A stretch of 43,625 bases of DNA from Chloroflexota bacterium (GTDB taxonomy: Bacteria; Chloroflexota; Dehalococcoidia; SM23-28-2; JACOUE01): NCBI GenBank assembly GCA_016178045.1, contig JACOUE010000070.1, positions 1-43,625 on the forward strand, in the 5' to 3' direction. Positions within the stretch are counted from its first letter, which is position 1. Each line of letters begins with the position of its first letter. The notes beneath the pieces were generated by a model. The model did no database searches. It had not been told where the DNA came from and was given only the letters and a program-made list of their open reading frames with translations. The translations under genes and the position numbers were made by a program. This document shows positions 3,404-14,132 of this stretch, in pieces.

Positions 3404-6400
3404 ATGGCTATTCGACCGGTCGGCCTGCTCCTCGATACCGTCTACGACAACACGGGCGATAAGGCCATCCGTATCGCCATGGAGGAGTTCTTCCAGCGGA
3501 GCGGCCTCCTCTACGAGGTGCTTAACCCCCTCTCCTTCGGCCGCTCCCACTACAGCCGGCTGGTGATCGGCGGCGGGCACCTCATCCGCGACGAGGACGG
3601 CGGCTACTACGATGTCTTCCGCGTCCCCGGCCCCCACGTGCTGAACACCGTCGGCGTCCTCGCCACCCGCAACCTGGATTACCTCCGCCGCTACGAATAC
3701 GCCTCCGTACGCTCCGCCGCCGACAAGCAGCGCATCGAGGCCGTCGTCCCCGACGCCGCCGTCGTGCCCTGCGTCTCGCTCGCCATGACCCCGGCCAGGA
3801 CCGACTTCAAAGTGCGGCCAGGCACGGTAGGCCTGCACCTGCCGGCGACAGCGCTCGTCGGGTGCCCCGGGGTGGAGAAGGCGCTGGCGGAGTTCGACTT
3901 CCCCTACATGCTCTTCATCCCCTTCACTCCCTACGCCCACGACCGCAGGACGATGGAGCCGCTCGCCGCAAGTTTCCCCCGCTCGCAGCTGCTGGACTAC
4001 ATGGACCCGCGTGAGCTCCTCACCATCACCGGCCAGCTAAGCTTCCTCGTGTCGTCCTCCCTGCACGGGTGCATGTTCGCCTACGCCAACAACGTCCCCT
4101 TCCTGGCCCTCGACACGGGCGCGGGCAAGATCGCCGAGTTCCTGCGCGACCGGGGCCTGGAGGAGTGGCTCTTCCGCAACACGCCAGAGCTGAAGACGAA
4201 GCTGAAGCAGCTGATGGAGTCGCCGCCGGACTACTCGGGCAGTCTGCGGCAAGACAAGAAGCGCCTGCGCGAGCACTTTCAGCGGCTGACGGAGGTACTG
4301 GGGCCACACGCCTCCTATGCCGCAGTCGGCGAGGCGGCGCAAGACGGCAACGGCGTTCGCCTCCTCCAGGAGCAGGTCCGCCGTCTACGTGAAGCCGTCC
4401 GGGACAGGGATTTCACCGCCGCCGGTAGGTTCCGTGAGCTGAGCGAGACGTTGCTGGACCGGAAACTCCGCGAGCGGGAGATGGTGAAGGCACTTGCCGA
4501 GACAGAGGCCGTCCTCGCCGAGCGGGAGGAAACGCTGGCGGAGCGAGAGGCCACGCTGGGGGAGCGCGAGTCCCAGCTCGCCGAGCAGCATAACCACATC
4601 GTCCAGTTGGACAAGCGCCTCTCGGAGACGCGGCGCAAGCTAGAGGCGGAGCGGGAGCAGGTCCGTGTGCTGGCAGGGGAGCTGGCCGCGGTCCACCGCG
4701 AGTGGCAGCGCGCCACCGGCAGCATCGGCTACCGGCTGCTGGAGCGGGTGCGGGCCGTTATCCGCTGGCTGGCGCCCCCCGGCAGCCTCCGGCGCGGGCC
4801 GCTGAGGCTCGTGCACCGCGGCATCGAGATCATCATCAACGACGGCTGGCGGGCGTTCGTCTGGCGCGTACCCCACGTCTGGAAGTGGCCGCGCCTCCTC
4901 CGCAGCGGGCCGCCAGCGGAAGCGCTGCCCTCCCTCGACGACCAGTACCAGCTGTGGCTGAAGGCGCACGCTCTCACCCCGGCGCGGTTGGGGCGGCTGA
5001 AGCGGCGTGCCGCCGAGCTCGCCTACCGGCCCAGGGTGAGCCTAGTCATGCCCGTCTACAACCCGGAGCTAGACTGGCTCCGAGAGGCGATCGACTCCGT
5101 CCGCGGGCAGGCCTACGACAACTGGGAGCTGTGTATCGCCGACGACTGCTCCACCCTCCCCGGCGTCCGCGAAGTCCTGAAGGAGTACGCCGCGGCCGAC
5201 AGCCGCATCAAGGTGACGTACCTGCCGGAGAACCGGGGCATCGCGGGTGCCTCCAGCGCCGCCCTCGCCCTGGCCAGCGGCGAGTTCGTCGGCCTCCTGG
5301 ACAACGACGACGAGCTGAAGCCCGATGCCCTATTCGAGGTGGTCAGGCTCCTCAACGAGCGGCCCGACCTAGACTTCATCTACAGCGACGAGGACAAGAA
5401 GGACGCCGACGGCAGGCTGGTGGAGCCGTTCTTCAAGCCGGACTGGTCGCCCGACCTGCTCATGACGGTGAACTACGTCACCCACTTCAGCGTCTTCCGC
5501 CGCGAACTGGTCGAGGCCGTAGGTGGCTTCCGCCCCGGGTACGACGGCAGCCAGGACTACGACCTGGTCCTGCGGGTAACGGAGAAGACCGACCGCATCG
5601 CTCACATCGTCAGGCCGCTGTACACCTGGCGGAAGGCGCCCGGCTCGGCGGCCGCATCAGTGGACGCCAAGGGCTATGCTTACGAGGCGGCCAGGAAGGC
5701 GCTGGGGGACGCCCTCTGCCGGCGCGGCCTGCAAGGGGAAGTGGTGGACGGGCCGTTCAAGGGCTGGTACCGCGTCAGGTACGAGGTCCAGGGTAACCCA
5801 AAGGTCAGCATCATCATCCCCACCAAAGACAGGGTGGACATGCTCCGCCGCTGCATCGACGGCATCGAGGAGAAGAGCACGTACCACAACTACGAGATCA
5901 TCATCATCGATAACAACAGCGAGGAGCCGCGCTCCTTCCAGTACTTCAAGAAGCTGCGCCGGCGCGTCGTCCCCTATCCGCACCCCTTCAACTTCGCCGA
6001 GATCGTCAACTTCGGCGCCCGCCAGGCCGAAGGCGACTACCTCCTCTTCCTCAACAACGACACCGAGGTGATCAGCCCCGACTGGATGGAGGCGCTGCTG
6101 GAGCAGGGCCAGCGGCCGGAGGTAGCGGCGGTGGGCGCCCGCCTCCTCTACCCCGACGGCCGCGTGCAGCACGAAGGCATCATCATCGGCCTGGGCGGCG
6201 GCTCCGCGGGCAACGTCGACCACGGCGGCTTCTTCGCCCTGGGCGAGTCGATACGCAACTGCACGGCGGTGACCGGCGCCTGCCTGCTCACCCGGCCCGA
6301 CGTCTTCTGGGAGCTGAACGGCTTCGACGAGCGCCTGCGCGTCGCCTTCAACGACGTCGACTTCTGTTTGCGGGCGCTGGAGAAGGGCTACCGCATCGTC

Positions 6401-6571
6401 TACACACCCTACGCCCTCCTCTACCACCACGAGAGCGCCACCCGCGGCCGCCTCCACCCGGACGAGGACGAGAAGCTGTTCCGCAGCCGCTGGGGCCGGC
6501 CGGGGCAGTACCGCGATCCGTTCTACAACCCGAACCTGGACCTGCGCCGGCCCTTCACCATCAAGGTCTAG
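3404..6571 (+). CDS. Fusion protein: polysaccharide pyruvyl-transferase domain, coiled coil, two GT2 domains
   Basis: A 1055-aa protein with three modules. Residues 1 to about 300 resemble the polysaccharide pyruvyl transferase family (CsaB-like): DNTGDKAIRIAMEEFF near the start, VIGGGHLIRDEDGG near 50, and SSLHGCMFAYANNVPFLALD near 220. Residues about 315-440 are a charged coiled coil with a repeating AERE pattern. Residues about 544-770 form a first GT2 domain (SLVMPVYNPE, LLDNDDE, SQDYDLVLR). Residues about 800-1055 form a second GT2 domain (VSIIIPTKDRVDML, FLNNDTEV, NDVDFCLRALEKGY). Tandem GT2 pairs occur in O-antigen polymer synthesis; the added pyruvyl-transferase domain suggests sugar addition and ketal capping by one polypeptide, which is inference. 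There is no convincing ribosome binding site. Its stop overlaps the convergent YfhO gene by 4 nt. Confidence 0.85.
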   Translation: MAIRPVGLLLDTVYDNTGDKAIRIAMEEFFQRSGLLYEVLNPLSFGRSHYSRLVIGGGHLIRDEDGGYYDVFRVPGPHVLNTVGVLATRNLDYLRRYEYASVRSAADKQRIEAVVPDAAVVPCVSLAMTPARTDFKVRPGTVGLHLPATALVGCPGVEKALAEFDFPYMLFIPFTPYAHDRRTMEPLAASFPRSQLLDYMDPRELLTITGQLSFLVSSSLHGCMFAYANNVPFLALDTGAGKIAEFLRDRGLEEWLFRNTPELKTKLKQLMESPPDYSGSLRQDKKRLREHFQRLTEVLGPHASYAAVGEAAQDGNGVRLLQEQVRRLREAVRDRDFTAAGRFRELSETLLDRKLREREMVKALAETEAVLAEREETLAEREATLGERESQLAEQHNHIVQLDKRLSETRRKLEAEREQVRVLAGELAAVHREWQRATGSIGYRLLERVRAVIRWLAPPGSLRRGPLRLVHRGIEIIINDGWRAFVWRVPHVWKWPRLLRSGPPAEALPSLDDQYQLWLKAHALTPARLGRLKRRAAELAYRPRVSLVMPVYNPELDWLREAIDSVRGQAYDNWELCIADDCSTLPGVREVLKEYAAADSRIKVTYLPENRGIAGASSAALALASGEFVGLLDNDDELKPDALFEVVRLLNERPDLDFIYSDEDKKDADGRLVEPFFKPDWSPDLLMTVNYVTHFSVFRRELVEAVGGFRPGYDGSQDYDLVLRVTEKTDRIAHIVRPLYTWRKAPGSAAASVDAKGYAYEAARKALGDALCRRGLQGEVVDGPFKGWYRVRYEVQGNPKVSIIIPTKDRVDMLRRCIDGIEEKSTYHNYEIIIIDNNSEEPRSFQYFKKLRRRVVPYPHPFNFAEIVNFGARQAEGDYLLFLNNDTEVISPDWMEALLEQGQRPEVAAVGARLLYPDGRVQHEGIIIGLGGGSAGNVDHGGFFALGESIRNCTAVTGACLLTRPDVFWELNGFDERLRVAFNDVDFCLRALEKGYRIVYTPYALLYHHESATRGRLHPDEDEKLFRSRWGRPGQYRDPFYNPNLDLRRPFTIKV

Positions 6572-9195
6572 CCGCCGCCCGTCTCTGGGGCCGCCGGCTC
6601 GCGTCCTCCGGCCCGCGACAGCCTGAACCGCCACACCGCAGTCCCGATAAGTATCGCCAGTACCGCCGCCGCGGCGATCAGAGAGATGATCACGCCGGCG
6701 CGCAGCAGCGGCGGTCGGTAGACAAACTTGACCTCATGCTCGCCGGCGTCCAGGAAGGCGCCCCGGAAAATGTAGTCGGCGCGGTAGACGTCCACCCGCT
6801 CGCCGTCCACGTACGCCTTCCAGCCCGGGTAGTACAGCTCCGGCGTCACCAGGAGCGCGTCGGAGTCCGTCTTCACCCGGTAGACCACGGAGTCGGAGTG
6901 GTACCGCACCACCCGCACGGAGGAGGCCGTGGCGGGTCCGGGCTCCCAGCCCCCGGGGGGCGCCTTCTCGACGTAGGCGATCGTGTGGGGATCGAAGCCG
7001 GGCGAGGTCAGGCCCTCCAGGACCTGCTCCGGCTCGCCTACGTGGACATCGCTCACCAGGAAGGCCGGCGAGAATGCCGTGTTCTCGAAGATCGTGAGCT
7101 CGCCGGGGTTGTCGTAGACCTTGCGGTACTTGCCGGGAGCGGTCTCCGCGTGGAGCGCGTTCAGGTTGTACCCCGGCCAGAACGTCAGGTAGCGGACGCC
7201 CAGGAGGTCGATGATGGGCGAACCGAAGTCGGTCCGCTGGCTCTTCGGCACCAGCGAGGTGATGCTCTGGAACGCCCCCTGGGAGAACGAGAGGACGAGC
7301 TCGCGGTGGCGGCCGCTGTAGTAGGTGTGGGAGAAGGCGCTGCTGAAGCCGTAGAAGGCTTGGGCGCCCGGGTTGAAGGTGTTGTCGAAGGGGGCCACGC
7401 GCTCGTAGGGACGGATGTTGGCCTGGAGGAACTCGACGCTCGGCAGCTCCGGGTAGAAGTAGGCTTCCGAGGTCGTCGGGTTCTGGCGGTAGGCGAAGAC
7501 GAACAGGTCCGTGATGACTAGGGCGAGGATGCCAGCCGTCACCAGCGCCGTGGGGATCGCCCGCGCGAAGTGGGCGGCCAGCAGCAGGGCGAAAAGCATT
7601 AGCACCAGGATGCCGAAGGCGGTGGTCGCGATGCGGAAGCTCTCGTAGTCCAGGTTGGCGAGGGCGTGGATGTCCAGGAAGGGGAAGTCGTCGAAGAAGT
7701 CGCTGAGCAGGGCGCGGCGTCCGTCCATCCTGTAGAGGAGCATCGCTGCCAGGAGTCCCAGCCCTGCCGCCCCGGCCAGCATCGCCAGGGAGGCGAGCCG
7801 GCGCGACCAGCCGTTCAGGCGCACTCGCAGCAGCTCCTCGAGGCCGAAGGCCGCCGCCGCCGACAGCGCGAAGCCCATCACGGAGAGCATCCGGGTGTTC
7901 GGGTTGAGGTCAAAGATGGGGAGCTGGCGGACGAACGACCGCAGGGGCCCCGTGTCGCGGTAGACGACCATGAAGGCCATGAGCGCGAGCACGCCGAAGA
8001 AGATGCCGGTGACGTCGCGCCTCCTCACCGACGCCACGATGCCCGTCATGGCGATGAATATCGTGGCGATGCCGATGTATGCCGACGTCTCGTTGAGGTT
8101 GCCCCATCCCCGCTGGCCGTTGCCGAAGACCTGGTTGCCGTAGAAGTTGGGGAAGAACAACTGGTAGGCGTGCTTGATGGGGATGGCGGCGGACGATATC
8201 CCCTTCCGCTGCCGCGATATGTCCACGAAGTTGGCGAACTCCAGGCTCGGCAGGAGCACGAACGCCGTTAGCCCGGCGGCCAGGCCGAAGCCCAGGCAGA
8301 AGCCGCCGACGGTCCACGCGGCCCTGGGTAGCGACCGCTCCTGGAAGTAGATGTGCACGACCCTCACCACGAAGTACAGGCCGACGGCGTAGAAGAAGTA
8401 CGCGGCCACCGCCGGGAACCCGCCCAGCACCATAACGGCGACGACGATGCTAAGGAGGGCGGAGTTGAGCGGCGTCGGCTTGCGCACGAGGTTCTCGGTC
8501 TGGAGGAAAAGGAGCGGGGCGACGGAGCTGACCAGCGTGTGCCGCCACATCAGCCATACGATGTTGAACCCGCTGAACATATAAGCAATGCCGCCGAGGA
8601 CCGACGCCGCGTTCCCCAGCCCGAGCCGCCGCAGGAACAGGTACATGAACAGCCCGGACAGGAACAGCTTGGCCATTATCGACAGCGAGAACCCCTCGGC
8701 CAGGGGGAAAATGATGGGGAGGGCGTTCACGGGATGGTAGAACGCCCGCAGCATCTGAGAAGCGAAGGGCCGCCCCTGGCTCCAGATTGGCGTCCAAAGC
8801 GGTATGTCGCCGCCGCGAATGCTGTCGCGGAAGTAGCTGAGGGCCGGGAGGCGGCCGTCGACGACGTCGCCGCGGACGATGTTCTTGATGTCCTTGAGGG
8901 TGAAGTCCTCCGGCGCGACCGACGACCAGGGGTAGTATCTGAGCAGGAGATCGGTTGGCGCGATGACTTCGCCGCGCAAGACGAAGGGCCAGAAGTAGAG
9001 GAGCGTGAGGAAGAGCAAAAGGCCGATCGCCCCCGCCGTGATTACCCGGGGGCGCCGCGCCCACTCGAGGATGCGCTCCGGTACGAACGGGAGTGCGTCG
9101 GCCGTCTCGTCTTCCGCTATCGGGGGACCGTCGGTAGACGCGGAGGTAGCCTCAGCGCCAGCGTGCAGGGGCGGGCCCTGACTGGAGGCGTTCAC
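6568..9195 (-). CDS. YfhO-family multi-pass membrane protein
   Basis: This 875-aa integral membrane protein has about a dozen hydrophobic segments between residues 40 and 570, a large non-membrane C-terminal region at about 590-825, and one last membrane helix near 835-860. The first loop has FVLRGEVIAPTDLLLRYYPWSS and later PLWTPIWSQGRPFASQ, typical of YfhO proteins, which resemble GT-C type lipid-linked sugar transferases. In Gram-positive bacteria YfhO is linked to glycosylation of teichoic acids; the role here is inferred from the glycan neighbourhood. GTG 9195 is the start, with a weak AGGCG upstream. The last 4 nt overlap the convergent fusion gene. Confidence 0.85.
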   Translation of the reverse strand: MNASSQGPPLHAGAEATSASTDGPPIAEDETADALPFVPERILEWARRPRVITAGAIGLLLFLTLLYFWPFVLRGEVIAPTDLLLRYYPWSSVAPEDFTLKDIKNIVRGDVVDGRLPALSYFRDSIRGGDIPLWTPIWSQGRPFASQMLRAFYHPVNALPIIFPLAEGFSLSIMAKLFLSGLFMYLFLRRLGLGNAASVLGGIAYMFSGFNIVWLMWRHTLVSSVAPLLFLQTENLVRKPTPLNSALLSIVVAVMVLGGFPAVAAYFFYAVGLYFVVRVVHIYFQERSLPRAAWTVGGFCLGFGLAAGLTAFVLLPSLEFANFVDISRQRKGISSAAIPIKHAYQLFFPNFYGNQVFGNGQRGWGNLNETSAYIGIATIFIAMTGIVASVRRRDVTGIFFGVLALMAFMVVYRDTGPLRSFVRQLPIFDLNPNTRMLSVMGFALSAAAAFGLEELLRVRLNGWSRRLASLAMLAGAAGLGLLAAMLLYRMDGRRALLSDFFDDFPFLDIHALANLDYESFRIATTAFGILVLMLFALLLAAHFARAIPTALVTAGILALVITDLFVFAYRQNPTTSEAYFYPELPSVEFLQANIRPYERVAPFDNTFNPGAQAFYGFSSAFSHTYYSGRHRELVLSFSQGAFQSITSLVPKSQRTDFGSPIIDLLGVRYLTFWPGYNLNALHAETAPGKYRKVYDNPGELTIFENTAFSPAFLVSDVHVGEPEQVLEGLTSPGFDPHTIAYVEKAPPGGWEPGPATASSVRVVRYHSDSVVYRVKTDSDALLVTPELYYPGWKAYVDGERVDVYRADYIFRGAFLDAGEHEVKFVYRPPLLRAGVIISLIAAAAVLAILIGTAVWRFRLSRAGGREPAAPETGGG

Positions 9196-9318: not shown

Positions 9319-12300
9319 CTACGCGGGCTGCGGACAGGGGGCTGCCGTGACGTCGTCGCCGGTGGGGATAGCGGCCAACGTGCTGTCCGCTATGGCGTTG
9401 ATGTTCCCCGCCCTGTAACCGCAGGCTTCGAATACGGACGGGCTGGCGACGCGACGCTTCAGGCCGCCGTCCATCACATATATCGGATCATCGGTCCCCT
9501 GGAGGAGGAAGCCGTCGGGAGGGATCAGCTGAGGGCAGGGCGGAGCTTTGAGTTTTTCGCCCAGCGGTATGCTCTTCAAGACAGTCTTCGAAATGCGATG
9601 CACGGCGTCCCAGCTATAGCCACAGGCATTCATCACTTTTGTGCCGTACACCAGGCGCCGCACCCCGCCCTCCATCACGTACACGCCGGTCCCATTCGCC
9701 TTTAGGAGGTTGCCGTCGGCCAGCACGCTGAGCAGGGGATGGCCGATCGGGATCGCCTTCATGTAGGAGGAAGCGAGGACGTTGAGGTTGCCCCAGTGGT
9801 AGTCCGCGTCGTGGAAGGTGACGGGGTCGGGTATGTACCGCCTGAGCCCGCCGCTCATGACGAAGACCTTGCTCCCCTTCACGCTGCGAAGCAGGGAGCC
9901 GCTGGGCGGCACGAACTTCGGGCAGGGCGGCCCGCTGAGGTTCGCGCCTTCGGGGAGGGCGGCGAGGCGGGTGTCGGAGATCTGGCGCACCGCGTCCGAG
10001 CCGTAGCCGCACTCCGTCATCACGGACGGGCTGGTGACGTGGCGCTTGGCGCCGCCCTCCATCACATAGATGGCGTCGCCGCTGCCCGTGAGGAGGTTGC
10101 CGTCGTCCTTGGCGTTGAGGATCGGCTCGCCGGTGGAGATCGCGGCGAGGGTGGAGTCGGCCAGCTGGTTGACGTTGGCCGTGCGGAAGCCTTCGGCGCT
10201 GAAGGTGAGGGGGTTGGGGACCTGCCGCTTGAGGTTGCGCCGCATCAGATAGATGACCGTGTCCGACCCCATCAGCAGGGCGCCGCTGGGCGGGACGAGC
10301 TGGGGGCAGGGCGGGCCGCTCAAGGGGGCGCCCTCCGGCACGGAAGAAAGCTTGCCGTCCGGCACGGTGAGTATGGCGTCGGTGCCGTAGCCGCAGTCCT
10401 CCATTACGGAGTTGGTGAGGCTGTGCCTCCTCCCGCCCCGCATCACGTAACGGGTGCTGCCGCTCCTGCCCTTCAGCAGGTTGCCCTCAGCGAGGGCGCT
10501 GAGGAGGCGGTCGCCCGTTGGTATCGCCGCCAGCGAGGAGTCGGGTACGCGGTTGAGGTTGGCCGTCAGGTAGCCGTGGACGCTGAAGGTGACGGAGTTC
10601 GGTATGTACCGCTTCAGCTTCCCGCGCATCACGTATATCGGGCTCTCGCTGCCGCGCAGGAGGGCGCCGCTGGGCGGCGAGAACTCCGGGCAGGGAGGCC
10701 CGGTCAGCAGCACCCCCTTCGGTATGTGGGATAGCGTCTCCTCGGTGATGCGGTAGACGGCGTCCCAGCCGTAGCCGCACTCGCCGAAGACCGTGGCGCT
10801 CGGGATCGGCCGGCGCTGGCCGCCCTCCATGACGTAGTGGGTGGTGCTGTCCCTCCCCTTGATGATGTTGCCGTCGTCGAGGACGCTGAGCAGGGGGAGG
10901 GCGTCGGGGATGGTGGGGGTCAGGCTGTCGGGCACCTTGGTGACCTCAGCCTGGTCGAACTTCCGGGCCTGGAAGGTGGCGCGGTCGGGGACGAGGCGCT
11001 TGAAGCCCCTCTTGATCAAGTAAGTCGCCGACGAGTCGCGGATAATGCTGCCGTCGGGCAGCTCGAAGACGCGGAAGGTTGCGTTGACCTTGACGCTGCC
11101 CGGCGGGTAGAGGGTGTCGATGATAATCGTGGCCGTGTGCTCCCCGGCCGGGATGGCCGTGGCCACCCCCCGCACGCTGATGGTCAGTTTCTTGGGCCCC
11201 AGATCGTCGCCCAGGGAGACCCCCTGGACGCGCGAGATCCTGAGCCAGGGCTCGGAGACGGAGGCGCGCCAGGCGAGGACGCCAGAACCGCCGTTGGCGA
11301 TGGTCAGGGACACCGGGAGGCTGGTGTCGCCGTGGAGGGCGGAAAGGGTGAGGCCTTCCGGCGACGGCTTGATTGAGGGCTCTCCCAGGACCTCTGCCCG
11401 GGTGAGGCTGGTGCCGGCGGAGTCCGTGTTGGAGGGGTTGGGGGTGGGTATGTCCATGGCGGCGCAGTCGCCGTAGACCGCGCAGGCCGACCAGTTCGAG
11501 GGGCTGAGGGGCCCGCGGAAAGCCGGGTCGGACAGGTCCGGCAAGTGGACCTTTATGGGGTTCCAGAGGGGCGTGCCGTCGAAGACGGGCGGGTTGCGCA
11601 TGCAGCCGAAGACCAGCTCCTGGTACGGGTAGCGCGAGCGGTCGTCGGCGATGCCGTCGTTGGCGTTGTCGCAGCCCTTGTAGGTGGGGCGGGGCCAGTC
11701 GTAGGCCGGGTTGAGGGGGTGGTTCTTCCAGGCGAAGCCGTTGTATCCCCAGACGGCGTAGTACCACGTCTCGACGAGGCTCGGGTTCCGCTTGCCCACG
11801 ATGGGGCGCCACTCCGGCGCGGCGTTCCACTTGTCGATCAGGATCTGCACGCCGCGGGCGATGTTGAAGGCGTAGTGCCCGCCGATCATCGCCTGCTGGA
11901 GGCTGGGCACGCCGCTGGTGTTCTGCATCCCTGTGGTGATCTGCATCATCCCGTAGCCGCAGTCGTGGGAGACCAGAACGGGGCCGACTTCACCGTAGGG
12001 CACGGACCAGTCCGCCTGGATCCAGGTGCTCTCGATCCAGGCGATGGCCTTCAGGAGGGTCGGCGGCACGTAGGGGCCGGTGAGGTTGGAAGAGCCGTCG
12101 GAGCGGGGCCCGGTCTCCAGCTTGGGCGGCTTGAACGCGGCGACGTCCGGGAAGAGGCGGTTGTGTCCCGCCAGGTTGAGCGCGCGGTTGTAGGCCCGCC
12201 TCCATTTCTTGGCCTCGTAGGTCAGCAGCTTGAAGGGGCCGGCGGAGCTACCGGTGTCGCCACAGAGGTGGGTGGCGCCGGCGCTAGGGGCGTTGGACTG

Positions 12301-12372
12301 AAAGGCCAGCAAGGCCAGCAGAGCGAGGGCTAAAGCCCCACCCAAAACAGGCCACTGCCTCAACGACCTCAT
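9319..12372 (-). CDS. Secreted transglycosylase-like protein with BACON-like domain and nine C-terminal repeats
   Basis: About 1017 aa. A signal peptide is visible (RSLRQWPVLGG, then a long Ala/Leu-rich core, cleavage probably after SAGA near residue 36). Residues about 85-240 resemble a lytic transglycosylase SLT domain: AIAWIESTW carries the expected catalytic Glu, and CGYGMMQIT resembles the GLMQ motif. Residues about 330-430 look like an Ig-type BACON domain (LPVSLTIANGGSGVLAWRAS). The rest is nine repeats of 55-65 residues. ATG 12372 is chosen because it starts the signal peptide and has GGAGG about 15 nt upstream; an earlier in-frame start at 12438 is possible. It sits beside the Wzt/Wzm exporter. 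The real substrate, peptidoglycan or another glycan, cannot be told. Confidence 0.75.
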   Translation of the reverse strand: MRSLRQWPVLGGALALALLALLAFQSNAPSAGATHLCGDTGSSAGPFKLLTYEAKKWRRAYNRALNLAGHNRLFPDVAAFKPPKLETGPRSDGSSNLTGPYVPPTLLKAIAWIESTWIQADWSVPYGEVGPVLVSHDCGYGMMQITTGMQNTSGVPSLQQAMIGGHYAFNIARGVQILIDKWNAAPEWRPIVGKRNPSLVETWYYAVWGYNGFAWKNHPLNPAYDWPRPTYKGCDNANDGIADDRSRYPYQELVFGCMRNPPVFDGTPLWNPIKVHLPDLSDPAFRGPLSPSNWSACAVYGDCAAMDIPTPNPSNTDSAGTSLTRAEVLGEPSIKPSPEGLTLSALHGDTSLPVSLTIANGGSGVLAWRASVSEPWLRISRVQGVSLGDDLGPKKLTISVRGVATAIPAGEHTATIIIDTLYPPGSVKVNATFRVFELPDGSIIRDSSATYLIKRGFKRLVPDRATFQARKFDQAEVTKVPDSLTPTIPDALPLLSVLDDGNIIKGRDSTTHYVMEGGQRRPIPSATVFGECGYGWDAVYRITEETLSHIPKGVLLTGPPCPEFSPPSGALLRGSESPIYVMRGKLKRYIPNSVTFSVHGYLTANLNRVPDSSLAAIPTGDRLLSALAEGNLLKGRSGSTRYVMRGGRRHSLTNSVMEDCGYGTDAILTVPDGKLSSVPEGAPLSGPPCPQLVPPSGALLMGSDTVIYLMRRNLKRQVPNPLTFSAEGFRTANVNQLADSTLAAISTGEPILNAKDDGNLLTGSGDAIYVMEGGAKRHVTSPSVMTECGYGSDAVRQISDTRLAALPEGANLSGPPCPKFVPPSGSLLRSVKGSKVFVMSGGLRRYIPDPVTFHDADYHWGNLNVLASSYMKAIPIGHPLLSVLADGNLLKANGTGVYVMEGGVRRLVYGTKVMNACGYSWDAVHRISKTVLKSIPLGEKLKAPPCPQLIPPDGFLLQGTDDPIYVMDGGLKRRVASPSVFEACGYRAGNINAIADSTLAAIPTGDDVTAAPCPQPA
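9322..11055 (-). repeat. Nine-unit protein repeat array inside the transglycosylase-like gene
   Basis: Nine tandem units follow the BACON-like domain and alternate between two types. Type A reads roughly (P/D)SGxLLRG--IYVMRGxLKRYIPNPxTF, then (A/V)DSxLAAIPTG. Type B reads DGNLLKG--YVMEGGxRR, then ECGYGxDAV, then PEGxxLSGPPCP. Each type B unit has two cysteines, one in CGYG and one in PPCP, spaced regularly and so possibly forming one disulfide per unit. The last unit is a hybrid with both cysteines. Confidence 0.8.
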
Positions 12373-12514
12373 CGATAAAAGGTGAACCCTCCGAGCGTGC
12401 ATACGTATAACGCTGGTGCCTGAGAGTGGGATAACCACCGCGTCTTCGCTTATAGACGCGGATACGGCCCGGGTGTAACAGGTCTGGCGGAGGAAATTGA
12501 CGGCCCGGAAGGGG

Positions 12515-13276
12515 TCAGACCGCCATCTCCGGCAGGTGCCCCACCATCTCGATGTAGCGGGAGACGACGGCCTTGGGCGCGCCCTCGTCCACCAAGTAGC
12601 CGTTGTCCATGAGCAGGACGCGGTAGCAGAACTTCTCGATCAGCTGCATGGCGTGGCTGACGACGAGGACGGTCACCCCCCGCGACTGGAACTCGTGCAT
12701 CTTGCCCAGGCACTTGTCTTGGAAGTGGGCGTCGCCCACGGCCAGGACCTCGTCCACCAGGAGTATCTGCGGGTCGCTGTGGACGGCCACCGAGAAGCCG
12801 AGGCGCATGTACATGCCGGAGGAGTACCGCTTGACGGGCGTGTCGATGAAGTCCCAGAGCTCAGCGAAGTCCACGATCCCATCGAAGCGGTCGCGGATCT
12901 CCCGGCTGGTCATGCCCAGGATGGAGGCGTTCAGGAAGACGTTCTCGCGGCCGGTGAGGTCGGGGTGGAAGCCCGCCCCCAGCTCGATGAGAGGCGAGAC
13001 GCGGCCGCTCACCCAGACGTCGCCGTCGGTGGGGGCCATCACGCCGGCGATGAGCTTGAGGATGGTGCTCTTGCCGCTGCCGTTCCGCCCGATGATCCCG
13101 ATCGTGTCGCCCCGCTCGACGGTGAAGCCGACGTCGCGGAGGGCGTAGAAGGGGTCGGACCAGGCCCGGCCCTTGAGGATGGCGGGGACGAACTCCCGCA
13201 GGGTGTAGCCTTCCTGGATCTGGAAGCGCTTGCTGACGTGACGGAACTGGATGGCGATTTCAGATTCGGTCTGCAA
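12515..13276 (-). CDS. wzt: Polysaccharide ABC exporter ATP-binding protein (Wzt-like)
   Basis: This 253-aa ATPase should power export of an undecaprenyl-linked polysaccharide or teichoic-acid-type polymer across the inner membrane. It has Walker A GRNGSGKST near residue 66, the signature-region segment YSSGMYMRLGFSVA, Walker B ILLVDEVLAVGD, and the switch His in VSHAM. The segment GRVSPLIELGAGFHPDLTGREN is characteristic of the Wzt/TagH subfamily. It lacks the long C-terminal glycan-binding domain of Wzt proteins that recognise modified O-antigens. The start is TTG 13276, with GGAG upstream, and it overlaps the permease gene by 17 nt. Confidence 0.93.
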   Translation of the reverse strand: MQTESEIAIQFRHVSKRFQIQEGYTLREFVPAILKGRAWSDPFYALRDVGFTVERGDTIGIIGRNGSGKSTILKLIAGVMAPTDGDVWVSGRVSPLIELGAGFHPDLTGRENVFLNASILGMTSREIRDRFDGIVDFAELWDFIDTPVKRYSSGMYMRLGFSVAVHSDPQILLVDEVLAVGDAHFQDKCLGKMHEFQSRGVTVLVVSHAMQLIEKFCYRVLLMDNGYLVDEGAPKAVVSRYIEMVGHLPEMAV

Positions 13277-14132
13277 AGCGGGGCTCCATCCGCTTGAACA
13301 GGTAGTAGCCGACGATGAACGTGATCAGGGCCACGGCCAGTCCCAGCAGGAGGCGGTCCGCCCCCGGCGTGATGCCCTGTATCACTACCCTGCGGTAGGC
13401 GTTGATGAACAGCGAGTTCGGGTTCAGGTCGAACAATATCTGGTATTGCTGCGGCACCAGGTCCACGGGGTAGATCACGGGCGTCAGGTAGAACCAGAGC
13501 GTGAGGGCTACCCCTACTAGAAAACGCACGTCGTGGAAGAAAAGGTTAAGCGCCGCCAGGGGAAAGGCGAGGCCCAGGGTGAAGATGAGGTGGATGAGGA
13601 ACAGCAGGGGCACCCACACCAGCGTCCACTGCGGCGGGTAGCCGAAGTACACCATCATGCTGATGAGGATCAGCAGCCCGAACGCCAGGTCGACGACCTT
13701 GGTGAGGACGGCGGCGGTGGGCAGAAGCTCGCGGGGGAAGTAGACCTTGGTGACCAGGCTGGCCGCGCCGGTGATGCTGTCGGTGGCGGAGGAGACGGCG
13801 GTGGAGAAGAAGATCCAGGGCAGGAGTCCCATCAGCACGAAAAGCGGATAAGGGATGCCCTCCGTCTGCACCCTGATTATCTGAGAGAACACGAAGGAGA
13901 GGATCAGCATCTGGCTCAGCGGGTTCACGAACGCCCAGGCGTAGCCCAGGACCGACTGCTTGTACTGGCCCCGCAGATGGCGGATGGTCATGTGCCACAG
14001 CAGCCCGCGGCGATCCCACAGCGCGACGAGGCTGGGGAGGAGGTCGCCCGGGCCGAAGGAGGACCGGATAAAGTGCGCCCGGGGGATGCGAAGGCTTTCG
14101 TTCAAGGGACCGGATGCGGCTTCTCTGCGCAA
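13260..14132 (-). CDS. wzm: Polysaccharide ABC exporter permease (Wzm-like)
   Basis: This 290-aa protein with six predicted membrane helices is of the ABC-2 type that partners Wzt-like ATPases. The N-terminal cytoplasmic stretch LLWHMTIRHLRGQYKQSVLGYAWAF leading into the first helix is typical, as is the downstream YFPRELLPTAAVLTKVVDL. It overlaps the ATPase gene and is the first gene of that leftward pair. The listed start is TTG 14132 without a clear ribosome binding site; another TTG 10 codons downstream is possible, so the exact N-terminus is uncertain. It likely flips the finished lipid-linked glycan made by the surrounding transferases. Confidence 0.92.
   Translation of the reverse strand: MRREAASGPLNESLRIPRAHFIRSSFGPGDLLPSLVALWDRRGLLWHMTIRHLRGQYKQSVLGYAWAFVNPLSQMLILSFVFSQIIRVQTEGIPYPLFVLMGLLPWIFFSTAVSSATDSITGAASLVTKVYFPRELLPTAAVLTKVVDLAFGLLILISMMVYFGYPPQWTLVWVPLLFLIHLIFTLGLAFPLAALNLFFHDVRFLVGVALTLWFYLTPVIYPVDLVPQQYQILFDLNPNSLFINAYRRVVIQGITPGADRLLLGLAVALITFIVGYYLFKRMEPRFADRI

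Follow-up and report, generated by a model that had tools for sequence, protein, structure and literature searches.

Nine tandem repeats at the C-terminus of a predicted secreted protein from a soil Chloroflexota bacterium are almost certainly of the same kind as the R domains of EccB, a component of the type VII secretion machine. The gene is located in contig JACOUE010000070.1 (GenBank assembly GCA_016178045.1; the window, i.e. the whole analysed stretch, has 43,625 nucleotides). An earlier note, made from the letters of the window only, could not place the repeat in any named family; PF05108, which describes the periplasmic repeats of EccB, matches it above the cut-off, so a known, named repeat domain was found. 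The protein consists of a putative signal peptide, a transglycosylase-like head (about residues 80 to 300), a linker, an immunoglobulin (Ig)-like domain (residues 353 to 461) and the nine repeat units. This pairing of head and array is new, and so is the form that the known EccB-type repeat takes here, an array that stands free. The features of the gene are as follows.

9319..12438, minus strand: whole gene, 1039 amino acids (aa) counted from GTG (open reading frame list and translation)
12277..12372, minus strand: putative signal peptide, residues 23-54 (judged by eye from the sequence)
11539..12201, minus strand: transglycosylase (SLT/GH23-like) head, residues 80-300 (16-row and 59-row alignments, Pfam SLT)
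12031-12033, minus strand: codon of E136, within the SLT/GH23-like head
11056..11382, minus strand: Ig-like/BACON-like middle domain, residues 353-461 (BACON_2 matches, structure model)
9322..11055, minus strand: array of nine EccB-type repeats, residues 462-1039 (PF05108, hhalign, Foldseek)

The gene had been placed at 9319-12372. The lower end is correct; the upper end is an internal ATG (codon 23), and the reading frame with the GTG start extends to 12438. This ATG may be the true start, since a normal-looking signal peptide appears to follow it, and the secretion that had been predicted agrees with that N-terminus as read by eye.

The Pfam model T7SS_ESX1_EccB (PF05108) covers three stretches of the array and scores 57.3 bits (cut-off 27), and TIGR03919, the NCBIfam equivalog for EccB, scores 48.3 bits, below its cut-off of 154. 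In hhalign, a profile built from 33 units matched three EccBs of Streptomyces at a probability of 96.3 (60 columns, 33% identity), while reversed and 20 column-shuffled profiles peaked at 0.73. In a HMMER test on seven proteins the repeat profile found three to four stretches per EccB with 28.8 to 60.0 bits per whole protein. Neither Pfam nor NCBIfam had a name for the repeat besides EccB in any protein scanned.

AlphaFold, run without templates on four units, gave a confident model (pLDDT 92.7, pTM 0.85) in which each unit is beta-beta-beta-alpha-beta-alpha (four strands, two helices); the repeats thus appear to fold as units, as the earlier note had supposed. Each of the repeats R1 to R4 of EccB1 is also described as four strands plus two helices (PMC4769845). 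Foldseek matched the model to 11 PDB entries at E ≤ 0.001, all of them EccB (7nps and 7np7 included). Comparison of the model with nine EccB entries in VIA gave Z of 4.8 to 6.9, the longer fits having a large root mean square deviation (rmsd); single-unit fits were obtained on EccB1 3x3n (Z 5.5, rmsd 3.0, 60 residues) and on 6sgy (Z 4.8, rmsd 3.0, 61 residues). The fold match depends in part on the known EccBs because AlphaFold was trained on EccB structures; the sequence evidence is independent of them. Profile searches of PDB sequences missed EccB, and the kinship with it is based on Pfam, hhalign and Foldseek. The PDB searches returned BurrH helices (profile A1), 17-residue pieces of 'Pizza' propellers with no single stretch passing (A3) and a fatty-acid-binding protein at E 0.22 (A4), all dismissed as chance. 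Other named repeats had no Pfam match, and hemopexin and propeller rows appeared in Foldseek only at E ≥ 0.26.

The closest solved structures, 7nps and 7np7, are EccB domains in a multi-subunit periplasmic assembly, and in EccB1 the R domains pack on one another and on the core (PMC4769845). The main rival to glycan binding is an assembly of the repeats with partner proteins in the manner of EccB. The array would then dock the enzyme on the exporter or on itself and make up a scaffold that spans the envelope. On the glycan side, the best structure after the EccBs is the endolysin LysIME-EF1 (Foldseek E 1.3; VIA Z 4.5, rmsd 2.8, 53 residues), and, in a relation of the same kind, the phage wall-binding protein PlyCB was reported to resemble R1 of EccB1 (Dali Z 5.0). 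The EccB1 authors proposed peptidoglycan binding from this weak likeness and themselves noted the lack of experimental support (PMC4769845), and the ESX-3 paper (PMC6986878) again uses the PlyCB likeness as ground for a hypothesis. PlyCB is absent among the PDB matches listed for our four-unit model.

The units have 60 to 67 residues (about 64) and follow one another as A B A B A B A B B'.

10876..11055, minus strand: unit A1, no Cys
10678..10875, minus strand: unit B1, C554 and C583
10489..10677, minus strand: unit A2, no Cys
10294..10488, minus strand: unit B2, C682 and C711
10105..10293, minus strand: unit A3, no Cys
9910..10104, minus strand: unit B3, C810 and C839
9718..9909, minus strand: unit A4, no Cys
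9523..9717, minus strand: unit B4, C939 and C968
9322..9522, minus strand: closing unit B5/B', C1006 and C1035, A-like at its start and B-like at its end

Unit-to-unit alignment scores exceeded the maximum of 200 residue-shuffled sets for 33 of the 36 pairs, which ruled out a chance repeat, and at the DNA level the copies recur with a period of 384 to 387 bp. The A/B alternation with Cys confined to B-type units was observed as the earlier note described it. Its 'nine cysteine-paired repeats' are nine repeats indeed, of which five carry the pair (C554/583, 682/711, 810/839, 939/968 and 1006/1035), and its CGYG and PPCP motifs have the Cys in the right positions within the looser patterns CGY[GSR] and [PA]PCP. 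We scored 49 units from the window protein and ten other reading frames of nine other loci (all 49 entered the Cys count; profile A3 was built from 33 of them). Both Cys are present in 23 units, 23 have none and three were scored as having the first only; the pair is thus not conserved in all copies. The second Cys never occurs without the first (0/49), and in the three first-only units it is shifted by a few residues (two units) or the unit is cut by the locus end (one unit). The pair co-varies across units as a within-unit disulfide would, and a putative intra-unit disulfide is consistent with this pattern. The predicted disulfide-stabilised array is plausible in that form for five of the nine units.

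An EccB orthologue was considered and rejected; the architecture is wrong, the EccB core domain is missing and a WXG100 match was not found. EccB has four repeats around a central core and an N-terminal membrane helix, a layout that the window protein does not have. No further PF05108 match and no WXG100 match were found in its own genome (2.03 Mb), a draft that is 89.8% complete, in which absence is not proof.

Matches to the window protein were detected in 35 of 61 genomes, its own included, and the scan of genome contigs gave no close relative of the full-length protein. Head relatives numbered 320 in named genomes; we kept 80 of them, nearly all titled Chloroflexota or Dehalococcoidia, and counts of named loci refer to these 80 (L numbers denote loci, also those outside this set). 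EccB-type repeats follow the head in four loci: nine in L039, seven in L040, six in L042 and one plus eight in L041. In L041 (8752-10296 and 10136-11740, from the close relative CF_163) two overlapping frames share the gene: the one with the head stops inside the first unit and eight units are in the other, through an assembly error or a real break. Many other head relatives end shortly past the Ig-like domain, and alternative tails include FG-GAP repeats (L017 by Pfam, L010 and L015 by eye) and dockerin-like or SH3-like domains (by eye). The tail of the head family is swapped between relatives.

The repeat was also found on other heads. A sample of 350 Chloroflexota genomes contained it in 38 (E ≤ 0.001), with up to 17 matches in one; a narrower first profile had found it in 5 of 148 genomes of the class. 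The bearers include an Amidase_2 protein (L031), PQQ propellers, TMEM260-type (membrane glycosyltransferase-like) membrane proteins, PA14/Golvesin, esterase and PD40 proteins and many without a Pfam match (L132 and L147 among them). Four TMEM260-type proteins of other Chloroflexota (L123, L126, L127 and L128, the last assigned by its likeness to L123) end in one EccB-type repeat. A 469-aa frame in the same genome as the window (L002:631-2037, contig C3 at about 820-1146) carries two to three divergent copies; its head is unrelated and has no Pfam match.

Outside the phylum, the repeat profile matched Bacillota enzymes. CgeD of B. subtilis (L150:2308-3588, 40.5 bits) has C-terminal copies, and in Priestia the profile found a CDP-glycerol transferase (60.7 bits) and another glycosyltransferase (27.3 bits); the Priestia frames are L149:2561-4192 and 4720-5979. 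Pfam leaves the repeat region of CgeD and the Priestia glycosyltransferases unnamed. An altered, expanded saccharide layer is reported for spores of a cgeD mutant (PMC7439481). One copy was found by profile in gp46 of Streptomyces phage Stigma (L178:2773-3177, 36.7 bits), whose gene is located two genes downstream of a minor tail protein; tblastn against phages gave only matches at E 4 to 5, the profile-confirmed gp46 among them. The window protein also matches PHROG 9616 (47.7 bits, function unknown).

The common thread of these proteins would be the cell surface and its glycans, and the heads are not a random sample. The hydrolase, glycosyltransferase and phage tail-region contexts favour surface glycans over a protein scaffold, and an array that varies from six to nine units among head-family relatives suits avidity better than a fixed scaffold. 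The repeats are also found on proteins without a glycan-enzyme head (PQQ propellers and the Pfam-less L132 and L147), which speaks for the scaffold. On balance we consider a scaffold role rather unlikely, at perhaps one chance in four. The phage copy bears on another alternative, in which the protein is a secreted lysin for antagonism or predation on other bacteria with the repeats as targeting part. Its layout of hydrolase plus binding array resembles that of endolysins, and a copy of the module is present in a phage tail region; yet the head family is widespread in Dehalococcoidia and in many cases has just two domains (80 of the 320 relatives were examined), the gene is located beside a polysaccharide exporter, and a scan of the neighbours revealed nothing like an immunity gene. 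A lysin is very improbable.

The head belongs to a Dehalococcoidia family that is transglycosylase-like by motif and kinship, with putative activity. In SLT enzymes the catalytic Glu lies in an ES motif, which G..Q and YN motifs follow; E136 would be this Glu. Alignment A5 (59 rows) contains 58 of the 80 named relatives plus the window protein, near-duplicates and short ones being omitted; alignment A2 contains 16 of 19 heads (L012, L013 and L014 were omitted because of truncation or a long insertion). In A5, E136, G161, G163, Q166, W230, Y232 and N233 are invariant in 59/59 members, and the Pfam SLT model matches 36 of them at E ≤ 0.1 (best 5.8e-7). Head-family members of the genomes G001, G008 and G011 exceed the Pfam cut-off. 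The earlier proposal of a transglycosylase-like head with a catalytic Glu is in keeping with E136 and the GYG..Q and YNG motifs found here. Comparison with canonical SLT domains of related genomes in hhalign gave 87-92% over 21 to 30 columns only. Profile A2 had no match among PDB sequences; A5 matched only EtgA, a transglycosylase, at E 0.61, which is too weak to count. The SLT-like head also occurs inside very large proteins borne on Streptomyces plasmids (L179:1133-4987 and L181:848-5242; 96 and 106 bits), one of which is annotated as a GDSL esterase.

A model of head plus middle domain was confident (pLDDT 93.8, pTM 0.92). The middle domain (model residues about 298-406) fits MSP/ASH/PapD-type Ig folds with Z up to 13.6 (rmsd 1.5, 98 residues). 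BACON_2 gives 16.4 bits on the window protein (cut-off 25), exceeds the cut-off in four of five head-family relatives scanned (L004, L006, L007 and L009; not L017) and is found in 34 of the 59 aligned members at E ≤ 0.1; the name BACON-like given to this part earlier is thus reasonable.

The genome carries murF and four transpeptidase-domain matches; peptidoglycan is therefore an available substrate, and a genome without peptidoglycan was ruled out. A search at E ≤ 0.001 found no canonical SLT match in it, in contrast to 22 of the 26 genomes covered. The bacterium may rely on the window protein for this role, or its canonical SLT genes may be located in assembly gaps.

The gene is located in a glycosyltransferase/ABC-exporter locus.

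12515..13276, minus strand: ATP-binding cassette (ABC) exporter ATPase, Wzt-like (Pfam ABC_tran, 74 bits)
13260..14132, minus strand: ABC-2 exporter permease, Wzm-like (Pfam ABC2_membrane, 64.9 bits)
6568..9195, minus strand: YfhO-type membrane protein, next gene downstream (Pfam YfhO, 70.5 bits)

The exporter pair, of the O-antigen/teichoic-acid type, is immediately upstream on the same strand; the earlier note had also spoken of an exporter beside the gene. Other neighbours are glycosyltransferases, a nucleotidyl transferase, a UDP-sugar dehydrogenase and a pyruvyl-transferase/glycosyltransferase fusion; a 1055-aa frame at 3404-6571 has a polysaccharide pyruvyl-transferase domain and two glycosyltransferase family 2 (GT2) stretches. 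Wzm and Wzt at ≥ 50% identity are found near the head gene in seven of the 80 named loci (L040-L044, L057 and L101), where the head gene precedes the exporter genes, follows them or faces them; some of the other loci are cut by contig ends. The adjacency has outlasted rearrangement and the exchange of tails, an argument that head and exporter may act together.

Such a locus also fits a head that trims the exported polysaccharide, like editing hydrolases of other secretion loci, or that is an inactive glycan-binding fold. The head is diverged from canonical SLT and its family carries conserved cysteines along with its own YPYQELV.GC motif, both in favour of this alternative. The Glu and both later motifs are invariant in 59/59, and around the large Streptomyces plasmid-borne proteins no locus of this kind was seen in the stretches at hand, both against it. 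We regard trimming or an inactive head as improbable, somewhat more so than a scaffold.

We put at about an even chance that the protein is a secreted wall-remodelling enzyme tethered by its EccB-type repeats at a polysaccharide-export site. It would be exported via its signal peptide-like N-terminus, and every second repeat unit would be stiffened by a putative disulfide. The array would tether it to the cell wall or to polysaccharide secreted by the neighbouring Wzm/Wzt-type exporter, with the Ig-like domain as a spacer between head and tether. The head would cut or remodel peptidoglycan locally so that the polysaccharide passes or is attached. We infer the disulfides, the glycan binding, the catalytic activity, its substrate and the link to export, and ligand and activity are the weakest steps. 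The identity of the repeat is much surer than this mechanism as a whole. The wall or glycan side is favoured by fusions of the repeat to Amidase_2, TMEM260-type and PA14/Golvesin proteins, the GT2 enzyme CgeD and CDP-glycerol transferase.

Several observations weigh against tethering and wall remodelling. The window protein scores 11.4 bits against Pfam SLT (cut-off 21.3), the hhalign alignment with SLT is confined to the surroundings of the ES motif, and the PDB list for the head-plus-middle model was filled by the Ig-like domain, which leaves a lysozyme-like fold of the head putative. The likeness of the repeat model to LysIME-EF1 is weak, and the EccB repeats have no known ligand either (PMC4769845). 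CgeD and CDP-glycerol transferase are biosynthetic enzymes whose N-termini, judged by eye, open directly with the enzyme or lack a recognisable signal peptide; the module therefore need not bind the wall. Exporter adjacency is limited to the seven loci, mainly close relatives, and most head-family members lack the repeats, which means that the head does not need them.

The findings suggest that the EccB module serves surface proteins of bacteria in general and is not confined to secretion. A bolder and tentative reading, to which we give roughly one chance in three, is that the R repeat of EccB was not invented for type VII secretion but belongs, as one of several branches, to a general module of bacteria and phages that binds surface glycans, carried by wall hydrolases, glycosyltransferases, membrane and tail-region proteins, and that the window protein and its relatives have expanded it into multivalent (AB)n-B' arrays with alternating disulfides. 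If true, the periplasmic repeats of EccB would be wall-glycan anchors, and the stand-alone array would be a tractable route to the ligand. The unit is free-standing and tandem here, on a wall-enzyme-like head, and the ligand question could be addressed with soluble proteins of non-pathogens. The repeat merits a separate domain entry, because Pfam and NCBIfam name it only as EccB in the proteins scanned. In open-licence full text (subscription journals and preprints lie outside it) we found nothing on EccB together with Chloroflexi or Dehalococcoidia, nothing on 'EccB repeat' or 'EccB-like', and nothing that joins CgeD with spore crust and glycosyltransferase.

Compared with the EccB repeats R1-R4 (PF05108, TIGR03919; EccB1 4kk7/5cyu), the window array has the same repeat length, four-strand two-helix unit and extracytoplasmic location, and shares the profile YVM..G.KR.VP...F...GY...V......L..IP.G..L. 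It differs from EccB as a nine-unit A/B tandem array without the EccB core domain that is fused to a hydrolase-like head, and its Cys pair lies inside the unit whereas the disulfide of EccB is in the core. PlyCB and LysIME-EF1 may share with it part of the fold of a single unit (PlyCB as reported for EccB1), and like it they combine a lytic head with a small domain in several copies; no sequence similarity was shown, and their copies are separate ring-forming subunits while those of the window protein are in covalent tandem. With SLT/GH23 (PF01464) the head shares the ES, G..MQ-type and YN motifs in order and the invariant Glu, and some family members exceed the Pfam cut-off; unlike SLT, the head family has longer loops, conserved cysteines 160, 256 and 279 and the YPYQELV.GC motif at the C-terminal end, and the window member is below the cut-off. 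The middle domain shares the Ig-like fold with BACON and BACON_2 (PF13004 and PF19190; BACON_2 in 34/59 and BACON in 7/59 members), although the window member is below the cut-off and structure search places it among Ig folds of a general kind (ASH, MSP and PapD). Bacillus CgeD carries C-terminal repeat copies by profile like the window protein, and it differs from it as a GT2 enzyme with two divergent copies that have no Cys pair.

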